A stretch of DNA of 64,000 bases from Candidatus Jettenia caeni (GTDB taxonomy: Bacteria > Planctomycetota > Brocadiia > Brocadiales > Brocadiaceae). The notes below the pieces were generated by a model. The model saw nothing but the letters and a program-made list of their open reading frames with translations. It was not told the DNA's origin and ran no database searches. A program made the translations under genes and the position numbers. Every line of letters starts with the position of its first letter. The stretch's first letter is position 1. The stretch is taken from NCBI GenBank assembly GCA_000296795.1, contig BAFH01000002.1, forward strand, positions 714,686-778,685, given 5' to 3'. Of this stretch, positions 27,301 to 44,375 are shown one piece after another.

Positions 27301-27323
27301 ACATATGGTCTATAGCCATATGT
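27301..27323 (+). promoter_or_regulatory. Palindrome before the ahbC-type gene
   Basis: ACATATGG (27301-27308) and CCATATGT (27316-27323) form a perfect 8-bp inverted repeat with a 7-base loop, 23 bases before the AGGAGA ribosome site. It could be an operator or an mRNA hairpin. Confidence 0.4.
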
Positions 27324-27358
27324 TTCTTCAATACGTATACATTTGCAGGAGACGTAAC

Positions 27359-28582
27359 ATGATTGGCATATCAAAGCTGTATTGCGGCACCGTGGAACCC
27401 TCTGATGCGCTACGATATGGTAGAGAATCTAAGAAACTACCATCGCATTTATTACAATTCTCTCAGGATAAAAAACCCGTTGTGGTGTGGAACGTTGGAC
27501 AGCGTTGTAACCTGAAATGCATTCATTGCTATTCTCAATCAAAGGATATTGAATATCCTAATGAATTATCAACACAAGAGGCAAAGGCCATGCTGGATGA
27601 TATTGCAAATTATGGAGCTCCCGTAATCTTATTCTCCGGAGGAGAGCCTCTTATGAGACCTGATCTTCTTGAATTAATCGGTTATGCAAAAGAGAGAGGC
27701 TTGCGCGCGGTTATTAGTACGAATGGTACATTAATTACCAGAGAGAAGGCAAATGAATTAAAAAAATTTGGACTCTCTTATGTTGGAATTAGTCTGGATG
27801 GTCTTAAAGTTACCAACGACCGTTTTCGTGGTATTCCGGGTGCATTTGACGCCGCATTGGAAGGTATTCGGAATTGTATGTCAGTAGGCATTAAAGTCGG
27901 TTTGCGTTTTACCATTAATAAAAGGAATGCCCATGATATCCCCGGTATTTTTCAGCTTATTGAAGAAGAAAATATCCCAAGAGTGTGTTTCTATCACCTT
28001 GTCTATTCAGGCAGAGGGTCTAATTTAATTGAGGAAGACCTTTCTCATAAAGAGACACGGGATGTTGTTGATCTTATTATCAACAAAACCAAAGAAGCGC
28101 ATGATAAAGGCAAAAAAATTGAAGTGCTTACTGTAGATAATCATGCCGATGGCCCATATATATATCTACGATTATTGAGGGAGAATTCTCATAGGGCAAA
28201 AGACGTGCTAGAGCTCCTCCAGTGGAATGAGGGGAACAGTTCTGGTAAAGGGCTTGCCTGCATAAGTTGGGATGGCGAGGTATATGCTGACCAATTCTGG
28301 AGACAATATTCTTTCGGAAATATCAGAAAAAGGAAGTTTAGCGATATATGGGAGGATACTTCCAATGAGTTAATGGCTAAACTTAAGAACAAAAATCCTT
28401 ATATCAAAGGACGCTGTGCAAAGTGTAAATGGCTTAATATCTGTAGTGGGAATTTTAGAGCAAGAGCTGAGGCATACTATGGTGATATATGGGAACAAGA
28501 CCCTGCTTGCTATCTCACTGATGAAGAAATAGGTCTTAAAGCTGAATTACCGAAGAAGGTAAGGCAAAAAGTAGCTATTTAA
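27359..28582 (+). CDS. ahbC: Radical SAM/SPASM enzyme of siroheme-dependent haem synthesis (AhbC/NirJ type)
   Basis: A 407-residue protein from ATG 27359 (AGGAGA six bases upstream; an earlier in-frame ATG at 27305 lacks a site). The opening MIGISKLYCGTVEPSDALRYG and the radical SAM motif CNLKCIHCY near residue 57 match the AhbC/NirJ group. The C-terminal region has extra cluster ligands (GLACISWDGEVYADQFW, then CAKCKWLNICSGN and DPACYL). AhbC removes the acetate side chains of 12,18-didecarboxysiroheme to give Fe-coproporphyrin III; NirJ acts in haem d1 synthesis on related substrates. An organism this rich in cytochromes needs both haem b/c and d1, so I lean to AhbC by the N-terminal match but cannot exclude NirJ. 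Confidence 0.75.
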   Translation: MIGISKLYCGTVEPSDALRYGRESKKLPSHLLQFSQDKKPVVVWNVGQRCNLKCIHCYSQSKDIEYPNELSTQEAKAMLDDIANYGAPVILFSGGEPLMRPDLLELIGYAKERGLRAVISTNGTLITREKANELKKFGLSYVGISLDGLKVTNDRFRGIPGAFDAALEGIRNCMSVGIKVGLRFTINKRNAHDIPGIFQLIEEENIPRVCFYHLVYSGRGSNLIEEDLSHKETRDVVDLIINKTKEAHDKGKKIEVLTVDNHADGPYIYLRLLRENSHRAKDVLELLQWNEGNSSGKGLACISWDGEVYADQFWRQYSFGNIRKRKFSDIWEDTSNELMAKLKNKNPYIKGRCAKCKWLNICSGNFRARAEAYYGDIWEQDPACYLTDEEIGLKAELPKKVRQKVAI

Positions 28583-29412: not shown

Positions 29413-30693
29413 TTAAAATTTATAACTAAAATCTATAGCAATTATATGGGTAAGTAAGTCATAACGTCCATCTATGGGCGGCCCTGTCATGAGTGGCTTA
29501 GTGGCATCTTCTCCGACTGAGTTATCTATTTTTCTGTTCTCATAAAATACTATTCCATAAGTGAAGTTAACCCATTTGTTCAGACTTCTTCCCCAGCCAT
29601 ATCCTAATCCAGTAAATAAGGCATGCCGGCTGCTTTGAGGAACAGAAGGCTCAAAGGTTTCACTGGGAACAGGTGATTCGTGAAAGGCGTAACCTCCTCT
29701 TACTTTTGTAGCATCATTTAAACAATATTCTCCACCCAGGGCAAAACCCAGGGTATTGTCCCAATTTCGGACATCTTCATGGCTTGCCCCTAAGAAGGTA
29801 TTTGCTGGCTCAAAATCAGATTTAAGAACATCGAATCGTGACCAATTAGTCCACTGGATATCAGCTTCTATACTCCAAAGATTTCCATGTCTATATGCAT
29901 AGCCGAATGAGAGCATTTCTGGTATAGTTGCAGTCGTCTTGGTATCTACATCAAAATCGGGTACGACCCCAAGCTGAGAAAGTTTTAGATTGCCATCAAA
30001 ATCGAAATCTGCCTTACTCCGGAATGCAATACCAATACTATGGCGGGGAGTAATATTACAGAGTATACCAGCGTTGTACCCAAAGGCATCACCATGAGCA
30101 TCAATGTCCTCAAATCCTTCAGGAGCGCCAGGAGCTAAGGGTGCGAATCTCTTGTTTTGGCTAGACTCAGCGTAGTAGTAATCAAGTCCCACACCTAATG
30201 AAAGGAAAGAGAATGGTTTAAAAGTAAGAGTTGGATTTACATTAATTATTTTCAAATCAAATTCAGTAATTACAAACCGGGAAAAGCCTTCATCGTCCCA
30301 TTCACCGCTCAATCCATAGGGAACCGTTACCCCTATGCCTGCAGCTAATTTATTCTTTAAGATCGGACTAGCAAAATAAAAATAGGGTATAGCATTTAGC
30401 TTTGTCTCCATGTCTTCACTAGCTCCGTTACCCTCATATTCAACCGAAGAAATCAGAAAGCTAGAACCCAGAGACACTTGTGGTCTTTCAAGTTGTGTGA
30501 GACCGGCAGGATTAAATTCAATTGCAGACGCATCGTCTGCACGAGCCACAAAAGCATTTCCTTGTGATAGCGCTAAAGCACCAAAGACAGGATTATGTAA
30601 ACCAGAGGCTATCTGCGCTAATACGTGTGTTGTCTTAAAGGAGAAAATGAGAGTGAAAACGCAAACTACAACTAGTTTTTTTATGGTAAGCAT
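29413..30693 (-). CDS. FadL/TodX-family outer-membrane transport protein
   Basis: A 426-residue protein with a signal peptide (LVVVCVFTLIFSFKTTHVLA, about 6-25) and the FadL N-terminal signature (ASGLHNPVFGALALSQGNAFVARADDASAIEFNPAGLTQL), where NPAG is the family hallmark. Amphipathic beta strands fill the rest, and the protein ends in YKF, an aromatic terminal residue typical of Bam substrates. FadL porins pass hydrophobic molecules such as fatty acids or aromatics across the outer membrane. Here the substrate is unknown. The presence of the gene supports a diderm envelope. Confidence 0.88.
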   Translation of the reverse strand: MLTIKKLVVVCVFTLIFSFKTTHVLAQIASGLHNPVFGALALSQGNAFVARADDASAIEFNPAGLTQLERPQVSLGSSFLISSVEYEGNGASEDMETKLNAIPYFYFASPILKNKLAAGIGVTVPYGLSGEWDDEGFSRFVITEFDLKIINVNPTLTFKPFSFLSLGVGLDYYYAESSQNKRFAPLAPGAPEGFEDIDAHGDAFGYNAGILCNITPRHSIGIAFRSKADFDFDGNLKLSQLGVVPDFDVDTKTTATIPEMLSFGYAYRHGNLWSIEADIQWTNWSRFDVLKSDFEPANTFLGASHEDVRNWDNTLGFALGGEYCLNDATKVRGGYAFHESPVPSETFEPSVPQSSRHALFTGLGYGWGRSLNKWVNFTYGIVFYENRKIDNSVGEDATKPLMTGPPIDGRYDLLTHIIAIDFSYKF

Positions 30694-30768: not shown

Positions 30769-31818
30769 TTATTGTACATTATCGCCTGGTTCTGAAAATT
30801 CATCAATCTGCTTATTCTCATTGCTAATCTCATAGTACTTATCAATGATAGTAAGAACCTCTTCGGTCAGATTAGGTACAAACTGAGTATTTATCCCTTC
30901 CGTGATAATTTCGAGCGCCTTTTCATGAGAAAATTTTTTACGGTAATGCCTGTCAGAAGTTAAGGCATCGTAAACATCTATTATAGAGAAAATGGCAGCC
31001 TCATAAGGAATTTCTGTTTCCTTCAGGCCATCAGGATAACCCTGACCGTTATACCATTCGTGATGATGACGCACAATTGGCAAGCTTTCTTTTAAAAAAT
31101 TTATAGGCTCAAGAATATTATAACCGATCTCAGGATGTCGCTTCATTAAAAGAAATTCATCCGCAGTAAGATAGTTTGGTTTCATAAGTACTGTATCACT
31201 TACACCAATCTTTCCTATATCGTGAAGGAATGCGCCATACCGCAAAACTTCAATTTTTGATTTACTCATGCCAAGTTCGTCGGCCACTAAAGAAAATAGC
31301 CAGGATACATTCTTCGAGTGAGTTGCTGTATAAGAATCTTTAGCATCTATCGCAAGTAAAAGAGCATGTGCAGTTGAAAAGAAATTCTTATGAACAGCCA
31401 TCTTCAGATTGTATACCAGCATATCCTTTTTTGATAATTCATTACGGTAGTTAAGAGCCTTATCTACCGCTGCATGTATTTCGGAAAGATTGAAGGGTTT
31501 TATAATATAATCAAATGCGCCATTTCGTAAAGCAGTGATCGCAGTTTGTGAGGAAGGGTATGCTGTAATCATAACTATTGGGATTGTAGAATTAATAGAT
31601 TGCATTTGCTTAAGAAAATCTAAGCCATTTGACTTTGGCATTCGTATATCAAGGAATATCATTTCTGGTTTAATACTTTTTAGATTATTCAGTGCTTCAT
31701 TAACACTTGATAATGTAAAAACGGAATACCTGTCTTTTAGAGTCATTTTTAATGATTCTCTTACACCAAGATCATCATCGATTACCAGTATATTTGCTGA
31801 TTTAGTTTTTTGTTCCAT
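30769..31818 (-). CDS. Response regulator with HD-GYP phosphodiesterase domain
   Basis: A 349-residue cytoplasmic protein. The receiver domain (about 8-125) shows IDDDLGVRES, the phospho-acceptor Asp in MIFLDIRMPKSNG and the lysine in YIIKPFN. The HD-GYP domain (about 150-330) shows FLHDIGKIGVSD, RHPEIGYNIL, HHEWYNGQGYPDGLK and IDVYDALTSDRHYR. HD-GYP proteins hydrolyse cyclic di-GMP. An AGAGGAATTATCAT ribosome region precedes ATG. It is divergent from the second regulator across about 1 kb. No partner kinase is adjacent on this strand. Confidence 0.93.
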   Translation of the reverse strand: MEQKTKSANILVIDDDLGVRESLKMTLKDRYSVFTLSSVNEALNNLKSIKPEMIFLDIRMPKSNGLDFLKQMQSINSTIPIVMITAYPSSQTAITALRNGAFDYIIKPFNLSEIHAAVDKALNYRNELSKKDMLVYNLKMAVHKNFFSTAHALLLAIDAKDSYTATHSKNVSWLFSLVADELGMSKSKIEVLRYGAFLHDIGKIGVSDTVLMKPNYLTADEFLLMKRHPEIGYNILEPINFLKESLPIVRHHHEWYNGQGYPDGLKETEIPYEAAIFSIIDVYDALTSDRHYRKKFSHEKALEIITEGINTQFVPNLTEEVLTIIDKYYEISNENKQIDEFSEPGDNVQ

Positions 31819-32833
31819 ATGATAATTCCTCTAATCCAGAATTATGACGCATTTTTTGTACCAACTTGCTTTGAGAGTTTGGTAATGAATTGTATCTTAC
31901 TTGTATTTGAGACTAATTATTCATAGCGTAATTTAGAAAGAGAATTTCATGGAAAATTTTACACAAAAGCTATATTAATAAACACTTAAGTATTATCATA
32001 AGTAAAGACCGTCCATCTTTTTATTATTTCGCATTAGACTATCTAAACATCTCAAAACTTAACTATCTATCAACTTACAAGTTAAGATAAATTTTGTAAT
32101 CTTATTAACAGTATAAAAATTGGAAACTAACTTCTGGTTTATGTATTGATTATCCACTGTCTATTTTAGACAAAAATGTTCACTATTACCCAGAATTGAA
32201 CACTTATTATTGGATTTTATTTTAATAAAGATATAAAATTTTCAGAAAAATTTATAAATTTTTAGATGACTAATAAAGAGATGCAGGAGAGTTGGGAAAG
32301 CAAGGCATCCACATAATATTTTTTCAAAAACCTTAACGTTTTATTGAATTGCCAGATTATTAAATAATGGCTAACATAAAAAATACCTTAAGTATTTAAC
32401 GCATTGAATAATCATTCTCTGCACGCAGCAACCTTAAAGCGAATATTATCAAAGAACAATATAGCCTTGTAAATGTCTATTTCAATAGCTATAGTATGAG
32501 GCGTTATAATTTAATAGTAATGATTGCTTTTGTCAATATATATTCAATAAATGAATACAACATAATTATTATAGTATTATGTTGGAATTACCTTGCCTAA
32601 ATAATTTTTGGGATCAGAAATAAATCAACCATGTTGTCACTAAATTATTTAAACATGGGTATAAAAATTGCGATCTTAACTGCAGTATTCAAACTAAGAT
32701 ATTGTGATAAAATTTTTCCAAAGTATTACCGAATTATATCTTAGATATAACTTTTCTATTATCATAATAAGGCAAGTTCGAACATAATTTTGACATTATT
32801 GTATACTTTTAGTGGATTAATGAGGAGGTGACT
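31819..32833. other. 1-kb AT-rich divergent spacer between two response regulators
   Basis: About 1015 bases without a supportable gene, unusually long here. It holds two adjacent inverted repeats (32541-32557 and 32558-32584) and paired CTTAAGTATT motifs near 31985 and 32392. It probably contains promoters and operators for both regulators; a small RNA is possible. Confidence 0.5.
32541..32584. promoter_or_regulatory. Adjacent inverted repeats in the regulator spacer
   Basis: TATTCA-N5-TGAATA (32541-32557) is followed directly by CAACATAAT-N9-ATTATGTTG (32558-32584), both perfect. They lie about 250 bases before the plus-strand regulator. Confidence 0.4.
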
Positions 32834-34318
32834 ATGTACTCTTTTCTCGTAGTCTCAAATGATAATTCAGTTTGCAATTTTTTTAAAAAGAATTTAGATG
32901 GAGACTATATAGTTTATGCTGCCAGAACACCTGACGAAGCATTACAAATATTCCTCGATAGAGACATAGATGTAACTTTCCTTGATATTCTTTTATCTGA
33001 TGATGGGGCAAATAAATTGTTGGAAACGCTTCGCCAGGCAAATCAAGACCCAATGATTGTTACGTTAATTCCAGAATCGCAACCAACATTATCTGAAGAG
33101 GCTATAAAATTGGGAGCTTATGAATTTCTTGAAAAACCTTTTAAAAAAGAAACAATACAGCTTGTTGCAAAGAGAGCGCTGGAAAAACAGGAACTTAAAA
33201 GAGAGCTTGGTTTCATCCAATCACAAATAAAAAGTTTAAAACCCGAAGATACTAGATCTTCTGAGTTAACATTTAATAAACAGCCAACCGTTAGTAATCT
33301 GCACCTGGCATACAAAGAAGTCTTCCAGAAATTCTCGAAGGCATTAACGCAGGTTTATGACCTTGGGAAGCTTGCTGATTCGATTGTTGATGCAATTGCT
33401 GATATATTCAAAGTGGGAAAAATAGTGTTTATGCTGGTAAATAAACATGAGGGTCTTAGCAGGCCTTATCGTTGTCTGGGTTTTGATGAAGTAACTGCCA
33501 GAAGTATTTTCTTTACCAACAACCAGGGTATCATATTATGGCTATCCAAGAACCATCAGATATTAAATAAGGATGTTATAGATAGAGAAATTACCACGAA
33601 TAAATTAACTATGCGTGAAGTAATAAATGTACAGAAGGAAATAAATCTTTTGCAAGCGCAATTATGTATACCTATCTTTGCTAATGGAAATCTCAGTTGT
33701 GTAATCGCCTTGGGTAATAAGATTACCGGTAAGGTGTTTTTTGATGAGGATATTGAATTATTATCTATGTTGGCAGGATACATAGGCATGGCTGTGGAGA
33801 ATGCATTCCTTTATCAGGAGGTAAATCTCAGGAAAATTCATAATGAGAATGTATTGGAAAATATTCCTTACGGTATAATTGCTATAAATACAGCATATAA
33901 GATTAACACCTTCAATAGAAGTGCTTCAAAGATGTTAAATATTTCTTCTCATGATGTATTGGGAAAGGATGTTAAGTATATTGGCTCTCTCTTTGCCGAT
34001 TTTCTCCTGAGAACTTTAAAAGAGAAAAAAACATATAAGATGAAAGAGGTCACACATCCGGTTACCCAAGCTACTTATGATGTCAGTACATCTTTATTGT
34101 TAGACTCTTATACAGAAATTGGCGCAATTATGATATTTTCAGATCTGAGCGAGGTTGTAAAATTAGAAACAAAGATAAAGGAATTAGAAAAATTAGTAAT
34201 CGGATATTTAGGTAACTCTGAGAATGCAATTCCTCATGATGTAACACAGGCGGTTACCGATCTGTCTAAAGATTGGATTTCCGAACGTCAACGGTTAAGT
34301 TTAAAGCAGGATTCATAG
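32834..34318 (+). CDS. Response regulator with GAF and PAS domains
   Basis: A 494-residue protein starting at ATG 32834 after GAGGAGG; GTG 32828 overlaps that site. Receiver domain about 1-125, with DVTFLDILLSDDG (acceptor Asp) and FLEKPFKKE. A GAF domain lies about 165-330 (LCIPIFANGNLSCVIALGNK, LLSMLAGYIGMAVENA) and a PAS domain about 345-445 (VLENIPYGIIAINTAYKINTFNRSASKML). No histidine kinase, GGDEF or DNA-binding domain follows, so the output is protein-protein contact or ligand sensing. The GAF-PAS part closely resembles the same region in the histidine kinase at 37903-40473, which suggests they work together or share ancestry. Confidence 0.85.
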   Translation: MYSFLVVSNDNSVCNFFKKNLDGDYIVYAARTPDEALQIFLDRDIDVTFLDILLSDDGANKLLETLRQANQDPMIVTLIPESQPTLSEEAIKLGAYEFLEKPFKKETIQLVAKRALEKQELKRELGFIQSQIKSLKPEDTRSSELTFNKQPTVSNLHLAYKEVFQKFSKALTQVYDLGKLADSIVDAIADIFKVGKIVFMLVNKHEGLSRPYRCLGFDEVTARSIFFTNNQGIILWLSKNHQILNKDVIDREITTNKLTMREVINVQKEINLLQAQLCIPIFANGNLSCVIALGNKITGKVFFDEDIELLSMLAGYIGMAVENAFLYQEVNLRKIHNENVLENIPYGIIAINTAYKINTFNRSASKMLNISSHDVLGKDVKYIGSLFADFLLRTLKEKKTYKMKEVTHPVTQATYDVSTSLLLDSYTEIGAIMIFSDLSEVVKLETKIKELEKLVIGYLGNSENAIPHDVTQAVTDLSKDWISERQRLSLKQDS

Positions 34319-34830: not shown

Positions 34831-35022
34831 ATGGACAATTCTCAAAGCATAGACCTTATGCTATGGAATTCATTTATGGGAAAGGCCTATTCTCTTAGTG
34901 ACTGCTTTAAAGAGAATGGTATTGGAGTACTCGCGAGGGCTTGCAGGAATGCAGGGTTTGATATTACGATTGAAGATCCAGCGCAAATCGAATTTTATAC
35001 CTCATTCACAAAAATGATTTAA
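34831..35022 (+). pseudogene. N-terminal fragment of a frameshifted B12-binding radical SAM gene
   Basis: ATG 34831 has AGGAGG seven bases upstream. It encodes 63 residues (MDNSQSIDLMLWNSFMGKAY...) ending at a stop (35020-35022) just after a run of five A. Reading one base back at that run joins it to the frame of the next gene without a gap (FTKNDLTQKLSELAFRIFHKE). The fragment is therefore the natural N-terminus of the following protein. Either an A was lost from a six-A run, or this is a sequencing error, or the ribosome shifts by -1. Confidence 0.75.
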
Positions 35023-35144
35023 CGCAAAAATTATCAGAACTTGCCTTTCGTATCTTCCATAAGGAACGTGTTGAAGATATTGTATCTTTAAGAGGAGAAT
35101 GGAATCTGCTTCAGGATAATCTCACAAAAATTGTTAAAAAAAGA

Positions 35145-36614
35145 ATGGAGAACTATATTGATGCCTTGGCGACGAAGATAGGCAAGAAGCGAGTAAAAGT
35201 ACTTGGTATAAAAACCTGGCTTGGAGATAGATTTGTATACTCCGAAAAGCTTGCGCAAAGGGTCCATGAATTGAGTCCGGATACATTAGTTATTGCCGGC
35301 GGACCACAGGTTAATCAATTTAAGACAAACGCATTAGAAAAAAGCCCCTTTGACTTTTGTATAGATGTCGAGGGTGAAATAACCCTAATAAAAATTATTA
35401 CCCTGGTAAAAGAGATGTATGCTCAGGGAGGTACAAAACCTGATGTAATAAAAAAGATTATTTCCCTTGCTGAAGCTGATGAAATTCCTAATCTGATATA
35501 CAGAAGCAGTAACGGCAAGGTAAAAGAAACAACTATTCAAAGACTTCCTTTAAACTCAAAACTTTTTCCTTTTTATGAGAAGGATGATGGAAAGGTAGAT
35601 ATAGCAGTAATCCATGAATCCTCAGGATGCTATTATGGAAAGTGTAACTTTTGTACACATCCCAATATTACCGGAAGGTATCAGAGCCGGGATATTCATC
35701 TAACTATTGATGAAATTAAGGAAACGATCCGGGAGCTGGGTATCGGACTTTTCAGATTTGCCGGCTCTACCACACCTGTTTCTCTTGCCAAACGGATTGC
35801 AGATGCAGTAGTAAAAGAAGGCTTAATTATAGAGTACTCTATGTTTGTGCGGGCAGAACGTGGGGCAAGGGAACGAATGGCGGAGTTAATTGATTCTTAT
35901 GAGAGAATTGTAAGCTCAGGGCTTCGGGCTGTTTTCATGGGTGTTGAAGCTGCTAACGATGAAATCCTTACAAAAGTCATGAACAAAGGTAATTCTGTAG
36001 AAGATATTTATTTTACCATTAAAGCCATAAAGCAGGCATCATATAATCAAAGAAAATATCTTGACGTAGGACTAAGTTTTATATATCCTTGCCCATTACC
36101 CCATGATAGTGATGTAAATCATGAGCAAGTTTTGGAAGAGAATTTATGTTTACTTCATAAATTAAAAAATGAGGATTATAAGCCAGATTCCATTCTCATA
36201 ACCCCTGGCGCACCGTTGCCTGCAACAAACTGGCAATTAGAACCCAAACAATTTGGCTTCGAACTGCCTGAAGGTTATATGCAAACTATTTTACGCTATG
36301 AATATGAGCTAACAAAGGATCCAAGTACATGGCCTGAACTAAATATCTCCTTACATGGAATAAAGTTTTTGGATATGCTTAAGATGGCCGGACTCATGGA
36401 GAAAAAGGTTCGGGAAATGGGTTATCCGGTTAACATTTCTGATGAACATTGTCTTGCAGCAAGAAGTGCAGGATTTATGGGTCAAAAAGGGCTGGAAGAA
36501 TTTAAGATGAGGAGTGATTTGGCTTTACTAACTACAGATTACAGTTTCCTTAGAGATGTTTACCAAAGGATAAATATGTACAGCCGTAAATTAGCCGAGA
36601 AAAACGCTCTTTAA
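35145..36614 (+). CDS. B12-binding-domain radical SAM protein (main part)
   Basis: From the first ATG after the frameshift, 489 residues; the frame is open further upstream and the intact protein would be about 594. The N-terminal half is a cobalamin-binding-like Rossmann domain (TLVIAGGPQVNQ, DFCIDVEGEITLI). The radical SAM cluster motif is CYYGKCNFC near residue 164, spaced CX4CX2C, followed by FRFAGSTTPVSL and a TIM-barrel-like region (FMGVEAANDEILTKVMNKG). B12 radical SAM enzymes do methyl transfers and ring or carbon-skeleton rearrangements. It lies 34 bases before the ketoacyl synthase gene, so a role in modifying a fatty-acyl or polyketide chain is a fair inference. Confidence 0.8.
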   Translation: MENYIDALATKIGKKRVKVLGIKTWLGDRFVYSEKLAQRVHELSPDTLVIAGGPQVNQFKTNALEKSPFDFCIDVEGEITLIKIITLVKEMYAQGGTKPDVIKKIISLAEADEIPNLIYRSSNGKVKETTIQRLPLNSKLFPFYEKDDGKVDIAVIHESSGCYYGKCNFCTHPNITGRYQSRDIHLTIDEIKETIRELGIGLFRFAGSTTPVSLAKRIADAVVKEGLIIEYSMFVRAERGARERMAELIDSYERIVSSGLRAVFMGVEAANDEILTKVMNKGNSVEDIYFTIKAIKQASYNQRKYLDVGLSFIYPCPLPHDSDVNHEQVLEENLCLLHKLKNEDYKPDSILITPGAPLPATNWQLEPKQFGFELPEGYMQTILRYEYELTKDPSTWPELNISLHGIKFLDMLKMAGLMEKKVREMGYPVNISDEHCLAARSAGFMGQKGLEEFKMRSDLALLTTDYSFLRDVYQRINMYSRKLAEKNAL

Positions 36615-36648: not shown

Positions 36649-37893
36649 ATGGTTACGAGGCGCGCTGTTATTACTGGCTTGGGAATATTGGCACCAAATG
36701 GGAATGGGAAAGATGAGTACTGGGATGCGCTTATTCATGGAAGGTCAGGTATAAGAAAGATCGTTTCTTTTGATCCCTCTCCTTTCAGTACACAAATCGC
36801 TGGTGAGGTAAAAAATTTTGATCCTTGCGATTATTTTGATCCAAAATTGGTCAAAAGAAGTGGAAGATTCACTCACTTTGGTGTTGCAACAGCAAAGATG
36901 GCAGTAGCAGATTCCGGCATTAATTTAAACAGAGAGAATCGAGATAGATTCGGGGTATGTTTTGGATCAACGATAGGGGCTGAGAATGATATATATGAGG
37001 GTCAACATAAGAAATTCTTAGACTCTGGCCCAAAGGCTGTTAGCCGCTTTACTGCTCCTGAATTTACACCTCATGTAACAACTGGTTATATATGTTCGGA
37101 ATTAAATATTGCCGGGCCTAATTCTACATTGTGTTCAGGATGTTCAACCGGACTTGATGTTGTAAATTGGGGTTATAATATGGTAAAACAAGGAACAGTA
37201 GATGTGGCAATTGTAGGAAGTGCAGATGCCCCAATCTTTCCTTTTGCCATGGCAACTTTCTGTGCTTTGGGAATTCTTTCAAAAAGAAATGAAGAACCTG
37301 AGGTGGCCTCACGACCATATGATAAGGATCGTGATGGTATGGTACTTAGTGAGGGTGGCGCAGCAATAGTGATTGAGGAATTGAATCATGCTGTAAACAG
37401 AGGTGCAGATATATATGCTGAGATTATATCCTATGCATCTGCAAGTGATGGGCAAGATGTTGTTCGGGTTGATGCTAATGGGCTAGGATTAGTCACCGCA
37501 TTGGAACAAGCATTGAATTCCGGAAAGATTAGAAAAGAAGAGATAGACTATATTTGTGCTCACGGAAACGCCATTCCTAGTTATGATGTGTCAGAAACAA
37601 ATGCCTTTAAGTCGTTTTTCGGGGAACATGCATATAAAATTCCGATAAGTTCCATTAAATCCATGACTGGTCAGGCTTATGCTGCCGGAGGTAGTTTTCA
37701 AGTAGTAGCAACGAGTCTCATTATAAAAAATGGAATTATTTCTCCTACAATTAATTTAGATGTGCCAGATTCCCTTTGTGATCTAGACTATGTTCCGCAC
37801 CATGCCAGATATTTCAACATGGATACAGCATTAATAAATAGCCATAGTGTCGGTGGTACACATGCCGTGCTCGTATTAAGAAAATATTTATAG
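36649..37893 (+). CDS. Atypical beta-ketoacyl synthase (FabF-like), Cys-His-Gln
   Basis: A 414-residue thiolase-fold protein of the FabF/KAS II family, starting after AAGGAGG. The nucleophile Cys165 is in SGCSTG and His305 is in CAHGN. The second catalytic histidine, normally in KSMTGH, is Gln342 (KSMTGQ). The gatekeeper loop NSFGFGGTN reads NSHSVGGTH, so the Phe is Val. KAS III uses Cys-His-Asn, so a C-H-Q enzyme might condense but decarboxylate differently, prime chains or act as a partner subunit. It lies between the radical SAM gene (34 bases) and the kinase (10 bases). Anammox genomes contain several radical SAM plus ketoacyl synthase clusters proposed for ladderane lipids. Confidence 0.88.
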   Translation: MVTRRAVITGLGILAPNGNGKDEYWDALIHGRSGIRKIVSFDPSPFSTQIAGEVKNFDPCDYFDPKLVKRSGRFTHFGVATAKMAVADSGINLNRENRDRFGVCFGSTIGAENDIYEGQHKKFLDSGPKAVSRFTAPEFTPHVTTGYICSELNIAGPNSTLCSGCSTGLDVVNWGYNMVKQGTVDVAIVGSADAPIFPFAMATFCALGILSKRNEEPEVASRPYDKDRDGMVLSEGGAAIVIEELNHAVNRGADIYAEIISYASASDGQDVVRVDANGLGLVTALEQALNSGKIRKEEIDYICAHGNAIPSYDVSETNAFKSFFGEHAYKIPISSIKSMTGQAYAAGGSFQVVATSLIIKNGIISPTINLDVPDSLCDLDYVPHHARYFNMDTALINSHSVGGTHAVLVLRKYL

Positions 37894-37902
37894 AAAGAGA
37901 TT

Positions 37903-40473
37903 ATGCCTGCGAGCAGAATCGTATTCATTCTTATATCTTTATTAATTGCAGGACTTGGAATCTTTGTTTTTTTAAGAAATCCTACAAATGGTATTAATAA
38001 AAGATTCTGTCTCTTTTCGCATGTTATATCAATATGGATATTCTTTGTTTTTCTTGTACTCCATACAACCGATCCAATTTTGGCTACTTTTAGACTGAAG
38101 TTAGTCTTTAGCGCTGCTATCTTTATTCCTTCTACTTTTTTCTTTTTTTCATCTATCTTTCCTGATCGAAAGGAAAGACTTATCGATAGGTACCTAAGCA
38201 TATCTTTTTTTGTTATAAGTATCTTCCTGGCATTTTCTTCTTCCTATATTGTTGAATCTGTATCCTTTGACAAGGGGTGGCCTTGTACCAAGTATGGCCC
38301 ATTATTTTCTGTATTTTGGTTTTATTTTATTATGTGTATGGCGCACTCTTTTTATATCCTTTACAGAAAAAGTGTTAACTATTACGGAATAAAAAGATTA
38401 CAGATTCAATATTTATATTTTGGGGTAGCAATATCCGTGTTTTTTGGAAGCATCACAAATTTTCTTTTACCGGTATTAGGTGTATGGCAAGTTGAGATGT
38501 TTGTACCTCTGGTATCCATTCCTATTCCGATAGCGGTAGCCTATGCTATTGCGAAATACCACCTCATGGATATCAGCGTGGTAATCAAGCGAAGTACAGT
38601 TTACCTTACTCTATCCATTGCCATGAGTGCAATCTATTTCATTATTGGAGTATTTCTGAGTAGTATTCTTCCGGCATCAGAGCACAGGAATACCATTACT
38701 AACGTAGTATCTATAATAGTAACATTTATAGCCTTTGTGTCTGCTCGAGAATCAATCCAGCATGTTATTGAGAAGATTTTTTTCCACACCAGGTATAGCC
38801 ATTCAAAGATACTGAGTGATTCTACAACAATGTTCTCTTCTATCCATGATTTGAGCGGCCTTCTTCATTATGCCATCCAGTACTTGTATGTTTCTGTAGG
38901 CATTGAAAAGATATGTATATTGCTAAAAGAAGAGGAGACCAAAAACTATAGATTAAAGGCAGCTATAAATTTTACACCTGAAGATAATTTGTTTCTCCTG
39001 AGCCAGGATATCATCGCTACGTGGCTTTACCAGAATAGAACAGTTCTTTCACGGGATCAGTTGTACCGTTTTACCCACAGCGAGCTTGACCGCGTACTAG
39101 AGGAGAAATTAGCATCCCTGAATGTCGAAAGTTGTGTTCCGGTTTTTCAAAAGAATGACCTCTTCGGTATAATTTTTTTGGGGAAGAAGATAAACAAAAA
39201 AATTTTTATCCAGGAAGATATTCAGATGTTTCTTGCCTTTTCTGGCCAATTAGCCATGGCGGCTAATAATGCCCGTCTTTATGCAGGATTGAAAGAGGCT
39301 AAAGTTTATAGAGATAATATCCTTCAGAGTCTGAAAACCGGTGTTATCGTTATGGATAATAATAGTAATCTTACTCTTATCAATAACGAAGCGAAAAGAA
39401 TTCTCGGGCTGGAAAATGCCGGTACAACCGAAATAATACTTAAGTACCTTGGCAGAGATGCTCGCGAAGCGATTCGATATACCCTGAACAATGAGGGAGA
39501 ATGTCATAATTTCGAAGTTCTTGTCGAACGTGAAAATAAAAAAACACCTTGTGGTATGACCACAACAAGCCTCAGGACTGAAGATGGGGAGAAGCTTGGG
39601 GCCTTAATAATTTTGACAGACCTGACAGAATTGAAGCTGCTTCAGAGCGAAAAGCAGCATTCCGAACGGTTAGCTTATCTCGGTACTCTTGCAGCCAATA
39701 TTGCACATGAGATAAAAAATCCACTGGTAGCAATAAACACCTATTTTCAGCTACTTCCTCACAAGAAAAATGATGAAGAATTTCATAATGATTTTCAGAA
39801 AATTGCTATAAAAGAAATAGAGAGGATTAATAGAATTATTGAAGATTTATTAGATTTGGCAAAACCTTCTAAACCCGTCCTGCAGAATATAGATCCTCAT
39901 GGCGCCATAATAGATACCGTAAATTTTCTCAGGAATATTGCTGCAGAGAAAGGTATTAAAATAATTACCGCCTTTGAGGAAAAAAGATGCCAGCTTATTG
40001 TAGATGAAGATAAGATAAAGCAGGTGCTGATAAATCTTCTGCAGAATAGTCTTGATGCGCTGCCAGAAAACGGGCATATCAGGGTAAGCACAAGCTTGAC
40101 AGAAGGTCTTTCTGCGTTTAAGAAAATGGCAAAAATACATCTGAATAGCACTTTCTTTTCCTTCGCTTCACTTTCAGTGCACAATCGAAATGACAAACTA
40201 TATTTTGTTATTAAGGTCTCAGATAACGGCATCGGAATTTCTGCCGAGAAAATCTCACAGATCTTTGAGCCTTTCTTTACTGATAAGGATAGAGGCACAG
40301 GGCTTGGACTCGCTATGGTATACAGAATTATAAAAGATCATGAAGGAGCTATCTACGTAGAAAGCAAAGAGGGCATTGGAACTGATTTTTATATTAGCCT
40401 GCCTTTAAATCGCATGAACATAAATAACACAGATAATTTCGTATCAGAGACAACAGAGATACATTCAGCATAA
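37903..40473 (+). CDS. Membrane histidine kinase with GAF and PAS domains
   Basis: An 856-residue sensor. The first about 275 residues are polytopic (roughly eight helices, beginning IVFILISLLIAGLGIFVFL), resembling the 7TM-type sensors of MASE or PlsC-like kinases. A GAF domain follows (about 300-460; VPVFQKNDLFGIIFLGKK), then PAS (about 470-570; ILQSLKTGVIVMDNNSNLTLINNEAKRIL), HisKA with the phospho-acceptor in AANIAHEIKNPLVAI near 605, and HATPase with DNGIGIS and GTGLGLAMVYRII near 800. All catalytic boxes look intact. It starts 10 bases after the ketoacyl synthase gene. The cognate regulator could be the GAF-PAS receiver protein at 32834-34318 or unlinked. Confidence 0.9.
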   Translation: MPASRIVFILISLLIAGLGIFVFLRNPTNGINKRFCLFSHVISIWIFFVFLVLHTTDPILATFRLKLVFSAAIFIPSTFFFFSSIFPDRKERLIDRYLSISFFVISIFLAFSSSYIVESVSFDKGWPCTKYGPLFSVFWFYFIMCMAHSFYILYRKSVNYYGIKRLQIQYLYFGVAISVFFGSITNFLLPVLGVWQVEMFVPLVSIPIPIAVAYAIAKYHLMDISVVIKRSTVYLTLSIAMSAIYFIIGVFLSSILPASEHRNTITNVVSIIVTFIAFVSARESIQHVIEKIFFHTRYSHSKILSDSTTMFSSIHDLSGLLHYAIQYLYVSVGIEKICILLKEEETKNYRLKAAINFTPEDNLFLLSQDIIATWLYQNRTVLSRDQLYRFTHSELDRVLEEKLASLNVESCVPVFQKNDLFGIIFLGKKINKKIFIQEDIQMFLAFSGQLAMAANNARLYAGLKEAKVYRDNILQSLKTGVIVMDNNSNLTLINNEAKRILGLENAGTTEIILKYLGRDAREAIRYTLNNEGECHNFEVLVERENKKTPCGMTTTSLRTEDGEKLGALIILTDLTELKLLQSEKQHSERLAYLGTLAANIAHEIKNPLVAINTYFQLLPHKKNDEEFHNDFQKIAIKEIERINRIIEDLLDLAKPSKPVLQNIDPHGAIIDTVNFLRNIAAEKGIKIITAFEEKRCQLIVDEDKIKQVLINLLQNSLDALPENGHIRVSTSLTEGLSAFKKMAKIHLNSTFFSFASLSVHNRNDKLYFVIKVSDNGIGISAEKISQIFEPFFTDKDRGTGLGLAMVYRIIKDHEGAIYVESKEGIGTDFYISLPLNRMNINNTDNFVSETTEIHSA

Positions 40474-41625: not shown

Positions 41626-43161
41626 TTATTTTTTCTCCCGTATCTTTTTTGACCTTAATTTTGTCTTTTTCTCTAATGCAGCCAATCGCCTTAAGGTATT
41701 AGCCTCACTCTGTATATCCACGTACTTCTTGAGTAAATTCGACCATGAGATATAGGTAAAGCCGTTGGGATTCATGTGCGCTAAACCCTTCCTGACCAAA
41801 AAAGCATCATTCTCCCACATATATAAAAAGTCCTTCTCAATCCTGCTCGGATTTCCTCCTTTTGCCCAGAATTCTCCATAAAAACCGCCAAGCAGATCAG
41901 GATATTTTTCTATTACGGGGGCAGGAGCTTTAGGCCTGTTTTCGGGCATAGGGTAAAGTATTTCTTCTTCATAGAGTGATTTAATCGTAGCATAGGCATC
42001 GCTTACATAGTGGAAAATCGAATCAGATGCCTTATCCATGGAATCAAGATAATCACGGGAAAATCTTTGTGAATGGCACTGAACACATACCTCTATCCAT
42101 GCTTCTCGCCTTGATTGCAGTTCTTTACTGTTCTTAATATAATCTGTTGGTTTGATCCCTTTAAAAATATTATCATAAAAGAGCACGTCCCCTTCACCCA
42201 TGATGGCTTTCCTAACCATATTATGTGAATATTGTCCTTTGTAATACATATGACAGGATTGACAGGTAGGAGAGATGTAGTTAGCATCCTTTAATTGCTT
42301 ATTCCAATCCCAGCTATTGCCCTCAATAAAATAGATAGAGCCATGTTTAGAATCCCTGTAATATTCAATATCAGGGTGATCTGGCCCGTTATGACAAGTT
42401 TGGCATGCCTCGGGCCTTCTCGCTTCGGATGCCCTGAAGGCATGGCGGGTATGGCAGCTATCACACTTATGCTGGATGTTATGGCACATATCGCAGCCCT
42501 GAACGATATTCTTATCCTGTGCTGCCCATACATCGACGTCCAGATTTGCATCATAAGCCTTTGCGTGACTTTCTCTGCCTGGCTTCCAATCAGGAATACC
42601 GTAGTGTTTCTCAGATTCAAACTCCTCAAATTCTTGCTTATGGCATTCACCGCAATGAGCGGCGCTTGGCATTACCAATTCTTTTGCATGGTCCAGCTTT
42701 TCAGCTCCAATCTTTCCATGACAGTCAATACATCCTACCGCAGTAAGTTTTTTCCCGAGGTGCTTCTCTATTTCGGCTAATTTCTCTCTCTGGTAATCCT
42801 GAAGTTTGCCAATAGGCGCATACGGAGGATTGGTTACTGGAGCCAGGCGGCTATCAATATTCTGATAATTCTGTATCTTATCGATCTTATCAAAATTTGC
42901 ATGATTACTTTCCTCCCATGCCTTTACTAAACCCGGATTTAATGCTTTATGACAGGCCACACATTCCTCTTCGCTATAAACACCTTTTGGCTCTTCCGGC
43001 GGTGTATAGAAATAGTCCGGGGCCCAGTATCTTTGAGTAGGAATCGGCTTCCAGAACTCTCCGTATGGCCCTACTCCTTTATCCAGCCCTTTAGCCTCTA
43101 CTGTATCATCTGAAATACTAAAAATTATTGATGCTGCGATAATTACTAAAATACTTCTCAT
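41626..43161 (-). CDS. Octaheme hydroxylamine-oxidoreductase-like cytochrome c
   Basis: A 511-residue exported protein. I start at ATG 43161 because GGAGGGG lies six bases before it and a signal peptide follows directly (MRSILVIIAASIIFSISDDTVEA). There are eight CXXCH haem sites (CVACH, CIDCH, CGECH, CDMCH, CDSCH, CQTCH, CQSCH, CVQCH), the HAO-family count. In anammox bacteria, HAO-like proteins oxidise hydrazine or hydroxylamine or reduce nitrite. Whether this one has the cross-linking tyrosine that sets the oxidative direction I cannot decide by eye. The tail is basic (KKTKLRSKKIREKK). An IS5-type element sits 63 bases upstream and probably broke its promoter. Its nearness to the Rieske/b operon recalls other anammox genomes. 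Confidence 0.92.
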   Translation of the reverse strand: MRSILVIIAASIIFSISDDTVEAKGLDKGVGPYGEFWKPIPTQRYWAPDYFYTPPEEPKGVYSEEECVACHKALNPGLVKAWEESNHANFDKIDKIQNYQNIDSRLAPVTNPPYAPIGKLQDYQREKLAEIEKHLGKKLTAVGCIDCHGKIGAEKLDHAKELVMPSAAHCGECHKQEFEEFESEKHYGIPDWKPGRESHAKAYDANLDVDVWAAQDKNIVQGCDMCHNIQHKCDSCHTRHAFRASEARRPEACQTCHNGPDHPDIEYYRDSKHGSIYFIEGNSWDWNKQLKDANYISPTCQSCHMYYKGQYSHNMVRKAIMGEGDVLFYDNIFKGIKPTDYIKNSKELQSRREAWIEVCVQCHSQRFSRDYLDSMDKASDSIFHYVSDAYATIKSLYEEEILYPMPENRPKAPAPVIEKYPDLLGGFYGEFWAKGGNPSRIEKDFLYMWENDAFLVRKGLAHMNPNGFTYISWSNLLKKYVDIQSEANTLRRLAALEKKTKLRSKKIREKK

Positions 43162-43215
43162 GAACAACCCCTCCAATAAATAAAGTGTTTGTAAAGGTAA
43201 CTCTCGGTTATCATA

Positions 43216-43224
43216 ATGTGAGAT
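43216..43224. repeat. Left target-site duplication of the IS
   Basis: ATGTGAGAT, identical to 44376-44384 on the other side of the element. A 9-bp duplication is usual for the IS903-like branch of the IS5 family. Confidence 0.85.
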
Positions 43225-44375
43225 GGCTTTGTTGCACAAATCCGATAAAAAAGCAGTTTTTCCCTGTAGTATGCAATTTATGAGATCGCATAACTTTCCG
43301 GCATTCCTAATTTCATCATACGGTTTAAAACAGATGCCTTGATACCTACTTCTGTTCTTTGTTGAGCAAGATTTCTGGCATAAAGCCTATCGCCAAAGAT
43401 GGTTTTGAATCGAAATATCGCATTCTCAACCAGAGAGCGGACGTGGTAACCAACACGCTCTTTCCACTGTCTTAGGGAAGTTCTTCTGATATGCCTTATC
43501 GTCTCATCTCGGACATGTGGCTCTGTACTGCAGTTGCCATGCTGCCATATCTTTGCATCCTTCCTCGGAGGAATAAGTATTCTGAGAATCCCTCTTCTCT
43601 TACAACTCTCATAGACCTTCCTCTTATCATAGGAGCCATCACCGGCAAAGGTATCAATCCTTGACTCTTCCTGGCTTAGAAGCTTATCTACTACCTCTGA
43701 ATCACCAGTACTATTCTCGGTAAGCTCTTGTGCTCTTATCTCTCCATCAGGAGTAATGGACAAATGAATCTTTCTCCATGTTCTTCTCTTGGTATATCCA
43801 TGCTGTCTTACCTTCCATTCCCCTTCCCCATAGACCTTTAACCCACTGCTATCAAGGACTAATACCAGATTCTCTTTCTTCTCTTTCGCTAAAGAAATTC
43901 CCACTGTTTCACCTCTTCGAGACAGGGTTGAATAATCAGGAACCTTCAGAGGGATATTCATGAGCCGAAACAGTGATTTGACTAATCCTTCTGTTTGACG
44001 AAGTCTTTGATGAAATACGATACCCAACTGAAGCGTTGATGTTATGGCCAGATCACTATACGTAGGGGGAGACCCTCTTTGGCCCGTTGGCTCTGCATTC
44101 CATTTCTCTTGTACCCCCTCGTCTATCCATACATCAAGAGACCCTCTTTGTCTTAATGCCTCTGTATACTCTGACCAGTTTCTTACCCGGTAGTCCTTCT
44201 TTGATTTCTTCTTTTTCTGTTCTTGGAGCGGCCTTTTATCTGTTCCTGCTAGTTTCTTTACGTCCCGTTTCTGTTGCTTCATACTGATATACTTATCCTA
44301 CAAAATAATTTATGGTACTCTTTCCCTTATTCTCTTAGTATATCAGATATTTATCCGGCTTTGTGCAACAAAGCC
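43225..44375 (-). mobile_element. Intact IS5-family insertion sequence (IS903-like ends)
   Basis: An 1151-base element. The left end starts GGCTTTGTTGCACAAATCCGATA and the right end read inward is GGCTTTGTTGCACAAAGCCGGATA, near-perfect terminal repeats. It carries one transposase gene on the minus strand and is flanked by 9-bp direct repeats ATGTGAGAT. Intact ends and duplications point to a recent insertion. Removing the element and one repeat restores a continuous leader for the HAO-like gene. Confidence 0.9.
43278..44282 (-). CDS. IS5-family DDE transposase
   Basis: A 334-residue transposase. The N-terminus is very basic (KKKKSKKDYRVRN). The DDE residues are expected in LVLVLDSSGLKVYGEGEW (first Asp near 145), FAGDGSYDKRK (second Asp near 218) and RSLVENAIFRFKTIFG (Glu near 290), the last in the Y-R-E-like context of IS5 enzymes. 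The gene fills most of the element and its frame is complete, so it is probably active. It is co-directional with the HAO-like gene, so read-through from it could reach that gene. Confidence 0.92.
   Translation of the reverse strand: MKQQKRDVKKLAGTDKRPLQEQKKKKSKKDYRVRNWSEYTEALRQRGSLDVWIDEGVQEKWNAEPTGQRGSPPTYSDLAITSTLQLGIVFHQRLRQTEGLVKSLFRLMNIPLKVPDYSTLSRRGETVGISLAKEKKENLVLVLDSSGLKVYGEGEWKVRQHGYTKRRTWRKIHLSITPDGEIRAQELTENSTGDSEVVDKLLSQEESRIDTFAGDGSYDKRKVYESCKRRGILRILIPPRKDAKIWQHGNCSTEPHVRDETIRHIRRTSLRQWKERVGYHVRSLVENAIFRFKTIFGDRLYARNLAQQRTEVGIKASVLNRMMKLGMPESYAIS

Follow-up and report, generated by a model that had tools for sequence, protein, structure and literature searches.

In a window of 64,000 nucleotides from Candidatus Jettenia caeni, the whole stretch of DNA analysed here, we identified a FabF-type ketosynthase gene (positions 36649 to 37893, plus strand) whose product, CHQ-KS, has the catalytic triad Cys165-His305-Gln342. 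The assignment was based on Pfam and NCBIfam models, an alignment with FabF and a fold model. At a probability of roughly 40%, we read CHQ-KS as a working, remodelled FabF-type condensing enzyme, whose product would be modified by a neighbouring radical SAM protein and sensed by a histidine kinase of the same gene module. The module thus read probably makes an unusual lipid-like molecule which the cell itself senses.

Residues and fold of the ketosynthase

The open reading frame codes for 414 amino acids, starts with ATG and contains no internal stop. Its product carries both ketosynthase Pfam domains, PF00109 and PF02801, as a full-length KAS match, and shows about 40% identity to FabF. With TIGR03150, the equivalog model of FabF, it reached 424.6 bits, under the cut-off of 493.75, and with the broader FabF model PRK07314 it reached 405.9, over the cut-off of 387. 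Structure prediction, with one model per protein, gave a monomer with a pLDDT of 83 and a TM score of 0.92 to B. subtilis FabF, and FabF proteins were the top Foldseek matches.

Residues were compared with the E. coli FabF gene, whose numbering is used for clade-wide substitutions. The alignment paired FabF Cys163 with Cys165 (codon at 37141 to 37143, plus strand, as for all codons given here), His303 with His305 (37561 to 37563), Lys335 with Lys337 and His340 with Gln342 (codon CAG, 37672 to 37674, also placed by codon comparison). Gating loop 1, GFGGTN in FabF, is rebuilt as SVGGTH (37846 to 37863, plus strand), where Phe400 corresponds to Val401 and Asn404 to His405. The original prediction had singled out the intact Cys165 and His305, the Gln in place of the KSMTGH histidine and the Val and His of the loop, and the alignment bears it out. 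It had also held that all else is conserved, which was wrong. His305 is followed by Asn307, Ile309 and Tyr312 in place of Thr305, Thr307 and Gly310, and the substitutions F400V, G399S, N404H, F398H, T305N, G310Y, E349Q and F133T are found in all or nearly all of 26 orthologues. In the same set T307 is replaced by Ile or Met and H268 by Asp or Glu, and D265 stays Asp or Glu. The loop reads SVGGTH in 24 of the 26, with SVGGSH or SVGNTH in the remaining two. Cys165 is invariant (26/26), as are the first His and the Lys.

Thr305 and Thr307 of ketosynthases make contacts to the pantetheine arm. Judged by its residues, the CHQ-KS clade has a rebuilt gate, and its pantetheine contacts and acyl pocket are probably rebuilt too. 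Phe400 serves as the gate of E. coli FabF, the two gating loops are coupled via Asn404 and Asp265, and filling the Gly310 pocket (G310F, G310M) left loading of a C2 probe at about 70% and of a C12 probe at about 30% (PMC7138838). Since the gate, pantetheine-contact and pocket positions of CHQ-KS are remodelled, we infer a short or polar acyl substrate. The favoured reading, with a short or polar acyl group, is supported by the sparing of C2 and the impairment of C12 in the FabF G310M/F enzymes; the clade has Tyr in place of Gly310 and His in place of Asn404.

KAS III (FabH), with its Cys-His-Asn triad, condenses with Asn where FabF has the second His. This parallel, already drawn in the original prediction, still seems reasonable: Gln342 likewise puts an amide side chain at this place, and short or polar substrates might be common to both enzymes. 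However, the amide of CHQ-KS belongs to Gln, the clade has Gln or His at this position, and the sequence and fold matches were to KAS II, KAS III models not being among them. CHQ-KS shares the fold, Cys, first His and Lys with FabF (KAS II), but its second His is replaced by Gln and E349, Thr305, Thr307, Gly310, Gly399, Phe400 and Asn404 are changed; the Cys-His-His triad of FabF is lacking in the window protein and in 20 of 27 orthologues. Our best reading is a KAS III-like condensing enzyme (or acyltransferase) for short or polar acyl groups, whose lipid-type metabolite would be sensed by its own two-component system.

We also considered a chain-length factor (KS beta), in which the catalytic Cys is replaced and which lies beside KS alpha. 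A chain-length subunit, proposed earlier as an option for this protein, is unlikely because of the invariant Cys165.

Descent and selection of the Cys-His-Gln clade

Orthologues of CHQ-KS were found in 26 of the 33 genomes of the window's anammox family, some of them incomplete, at 68-100% identity, and one at 61% identity in G002, a genome from another family within this order. These 27 sequences form a single clade in the maximum-likelihood tree, with a support of 100/100. Beyond the Brocadiales, the C-H-Q type was found neither among 392 sampled Planctomycetota genomes nor in a peptide scan of genome contigs; the nearest other homologues (L036, L037, L038, L072, L055) are canonical C-H-H enzymes. 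Neither a Cys-His-Gln ketosynthase nor this module in Jettenia came up in literature searches.

Position 342 is Gln (codon CAA or CAG) in 20 of the 27 orthologues and His (CAT) in seven, so Gln is not peculiar to one strain with His in its close orthologues. The seven His342 sequences make up one branch (support 100/99), which keeps all other substitutions of the clade. The sequence of G002, the earliest branch, has Gln342, indicating that Gln is ancestral in the clade; by this branching order the change from Gln to His is a single later reversal. The original prediction had asked whether C-H-Q defines a clade, and this is supported. Since one subclade reverted with the other changes retained, Gln342 is not strictly required. 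This natural return to C-H-H, with the other changes constant, provides a ready-made experiment on the second histidine in condensing enzymes.

The loss of this His in 20 of 27 sequences, together with that of E349 and both pantetheine-binding Thr, and the direct operon link with a kinase would also fit a protein that no longer condenses but acts as an acyltransferase or acyl-thioester sensor, using its retained Cys-His dyad to load an acyl group for transfer to the signalling proteins or a non-malonyl acceptor. We think this unlikely. His342 was regained in seven orthologues with the rest unchanged, which suggests that a condensing-type geometry still matters, and KAS III condenses with Asn at the same place.

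Pairwise dN/dS values were 0.04-0.09 (about 0.05), with 0.14 in one very close pair. On these values CHQ-KS is a maintained enzyme gene under purifying selection, in agreement with the earlier view that the gene is not broken. The altered active-site residues, and the broken frame of the window's radical SAM gene described below, could be taken as signs that a duplicated FabF is slowly decaying, with Gln as a product of drift. This is very improbable, and decay of CHQ-KS was rejected as contradicted by the dN/dS test. Moreover, Cys, His and Lys are invariant, every complete copy has an open frame and synteny has been retained over two families.

In the Brocadia MAG_8 genome (G020), three copies of the module ketosynthase were observed on L010, L039 and L049; one shares 100% identity with the protein of the window, and two lie on short contigs. 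This is probably contamination by Jettenia-type strains.

Gene content and inheritance of the module

The genes of the module keep a fixed order, and synteny spans two families. In all complete loci examined, a B12-binding-type radical SAM gene precedes CHQ-KS. In the family loci, a 7TM-PAS histidine kinase gene lies directly 3' of CHQ-KS and a receiver-GAF-PAS gene lies upstream, and genes for a receiver-HD-GYP protein and a FadL protein are divergently oriented in most. The most informative context of CHQ-KS, overlooked in the original prediction, consists of the kinase, the FadL porin, the HD-GYP regulator and a sigma-54 promoter. In the window, the kinase (7TM-PAS-HisKA-HATPase; 37903 to 40473, plus strand) has an intact H box (AHEIKNP) and intact G boxes (DNGIGI, DRGTGLGL). 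The receiver-GAF-PAS protein (32828 to 34318, plus strand) was assigned by domain matches; it has no HATPase domain in Jettenia and Brocadia, and one is present in Kuenenia-type loci and G002 (L052:2474-4642, L067:14214-16313). The receiver-HD-GYP protein (30769 to 31818, minus strand) carries the motifs HDIGK and HHEWYNGQGYP. The FadL/TodX-type outer-membrane transporter (29413 to 30693, minus strand) is co-inherited with the module. The G002 locus has adjoining genes for NtrC, the radical SAM protein and the ketosynthase, and its kinase gene lies about 7 kb away.

The presence of the ketosynthase, radical SAM and kinase genes was concordant in 75 genomes of the class, with one exception, G037, and with four more distant genomes set aside that had ketosynthase matches of 40-44% and are not clade members. 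The link to the radical SAM gene, which the original prediction had named as possible support for a special role, was found in 25 of the 26 family genomes; G037, the one without it, is 58% complete and its contig stops short of the radical SAM gene. Where CHQ-KS is missing, in seven family genomes, so is the whole module. A FadL orthologue better than 1e-90 was found in 22 of the 26 module-positive family genomes and in none of the seven module-negative ones, from all of which the HD-GYP orthologue is absent as well.

The radical SAM partner of the window (34831 to 36614, plus strand) combines a radical SAM domain with an N-terminal part of the B12 type, and the L048 protein matched PF02310 and PF04055 above cut-off. 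Its frame is broken, and the listed open reading frame begins only at 35145. Compared with J. ecosi, one A is missing (A5 for A6 at 35010 to 35014), and the DNA from 34831 to 35145 is otherwise nearly identical. The frameshift is possibly a sequencing error or a recent mutation; the gene is interrupted in one further genome, G014. The cluster motif has the spacing CX4CX2C (GCxYGxCxFC), invariant in 19 sequences (e.g. L040:6182-7966), in place of the usual CX3CX2C. The closest solved folds were OxsB and TsrM, and a search by sequence gave no credible solved homologue. The protein thus shares B12-binding and radical SAM domains with the cobalamin-dependent enzymes of the OxsB, TsrM and PhpK family, but differs in its cluster spacing and in its weak scores, far under every NCBIfam cut-off. 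In G002, the ketosynthase gene is followed by another, distinct B12-type radical SAM gene (L067:7300-8703).

Most loci have a -24/-12 sigma-54 site 5' of the first operon gene; it was found in 16 (15 distinct), with scores of 12.8-15 of 15, and first-order resampling gave a chance probability of 0-0.018 for each region. The site of L060, TGGCACGAAAGTTGCT, is perfect (15/15), and that of L058, scoring 12.8, lies somewhat farther upstream. The sigma-54-like site of the window, GGGTATAAAAATTGCG (32657 to 32672, plus strand), is the weakest of the conserved set, with a chance probability of 0.037. The same promoter scan found no site in Kuenenia-type loci. The clusters of Brocadia, K. hertensis and G002 encode an NtrC-type regulator, and those of Jettenia have no such gene. 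Together, the promoter sites and the NtrC gene point to sigma-54 control.

Brocadia-type loci often add a further ketosynthase pair along with the NtrC gene. This pair lies between the NtrC and radical SAM genes (L048:3221-5802, L060, L063, L064, L066, L071) and comprises one canonical C-H-H enzyme and a second whose triad positions hold Ala, Ser and Phe, leaving it with no catalytic triad. It resembles a pair of ketosynthase and chain-length factor.

Candidate signalling role and relation to ladderane synthesis

In the favoured reading, Cys165 would be loaded with a short or polar acyl group, and the second substrate would be polarised by His305 and Gln342, which would act like the His and Asn of KAS III. 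The product might then be methylated or rearranged by the radical SAM protein, the FadL porin could carry the molecule across the outer membrane and the 7TM kinase could sense it. Output would pass through the NtrC-type regulator, with sigma-54 autoregulation, and through cyclic-di-GMP turnover by the HD-GYP protein; phosphotransfer from the kinase to the HD-GYP protein goes beyond the sequence evidence. The favoured reading is supported by the clade (100/100) with its one reversal, the low dN/dS, the clade-wide residues, co-inheritance, gene order and the sigma-54 sites with NtrC. It is weakened by the broken radical SAM frame, by the Jettenia loci without NtrC in the cluster and by the gene content: a motif scan of the cluster gaps for an acyl carrier protein turned up nothing beyond pieces of known genes or noise, and the conserved genes of the module include no reductase, exporter or thioesterase. 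The kinase could also sense something unrelated to the ketosynthase product. It is doubtful, though conceivable, that the entire chain exists in anammox bacteria as a lipid-type signalling system not described before, from a signal made by CHQ-KS and the radical SAM protein through the 7TM kinase to sigma-54 transcription and cyclic-di-GMP turnover.

In Rpf/DSF signalling by RpfF, RpfC and RpfG, too, a single locus encodes a membrane kinase and a receiver-HD-GYP protein together with an enzyme of acyl chemistry. The proposed system may work like this fatty-acid signalling with unrelated synthesis enzymes, and the receiver-HD-GYP protein of the module, with its two motifs, is of the RpfG type. 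However, no crotonase-type synthase like RpfF is among the conserved module genes, the module kinase is without receiver and HPt domains, and the module adds a ketosynthase, a B12-type radical SAM protein and sigma-54 control. Because synthase type, kinase architecture and sigma-54 control differ, we did not file the module as a member of the Rpf/DSF systems.

Anammox bacteria account for a major share of global nitrogen loss and are genetically hard to handle. With the fixed module, lipid-based cell signalling in these organisms gains a concrete candidate that can be tested.

The genome of the window carries ladderane-type ketosynthase pairs elsewhere (L003/L006 and L004/L005), and the published signature residues of kuste2805 and kuste3606 recur in L005 and L006. 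Anammox FabF paralogues with altered sites are known, of which the non-canonical ones lack Cys and both His (PMC2649909, Table 2). These pairs and paralogues, the FabF fold of CHQ-KS and the fold relation of its partner to the B12-type enzymes OxsB and TsrM would suit an enzyme of membrane-lipid or ladderane modification (e.g. special elongation or priming), with the kinase, HD-GYP and FadL proteins only regulating the composition or sensing the state of the membrane. We find this rather unlikely. The paralogues kuste2805, kuste3606 and kuste3348 also lie near radical SAM genes, and two of them share Gln at FabB position 342 (FabF 349) with CHQ-KS, but they lack Cys and both His, of which CHQ-KS keeps Cys and the first His. 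The ladderane paralogues belong to other clades (L005, L006), separate from that of CHQ-KS, and are present where the module is missing.

Specifically, five of the seven module-negative family genomes carry the L005-type ladderane-cluster ketosynthase (G013, G025, G026 and G034 at 74-77%, G031 at 71%), and five have hydrazine dehydrogenase above the model cut-off (G013, G025, G031, G034, G036). Since these genes occur in genomes without the module, it is not required for ladderane clusters or anammox metabolism, and a necessary role in the ladderane pathway was rejected. The module varies even within Kuenenia, because module-negative G031 shares its genus code with K. hertensis (G029). The radical SAM-ketosynthase pair of the module can now be separated from ladderane synthesis, with which it could be confused.

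Two further genes were observed near the module. At positions 41626 to 44282 of the window, a multihaem cytochrome gene weakly related to hydrazine dehydrogenase adjoins an IS5-family transposase, and the same cytochrome gene also flanks the module in L040-L043, L059 and L070. A gene for 12,18-didecarboxysiroheme deacetylase (AhbC; 27305 to 28582), an enzyme of siroheme-dependent haem synthesis, was found above the model cut-off.
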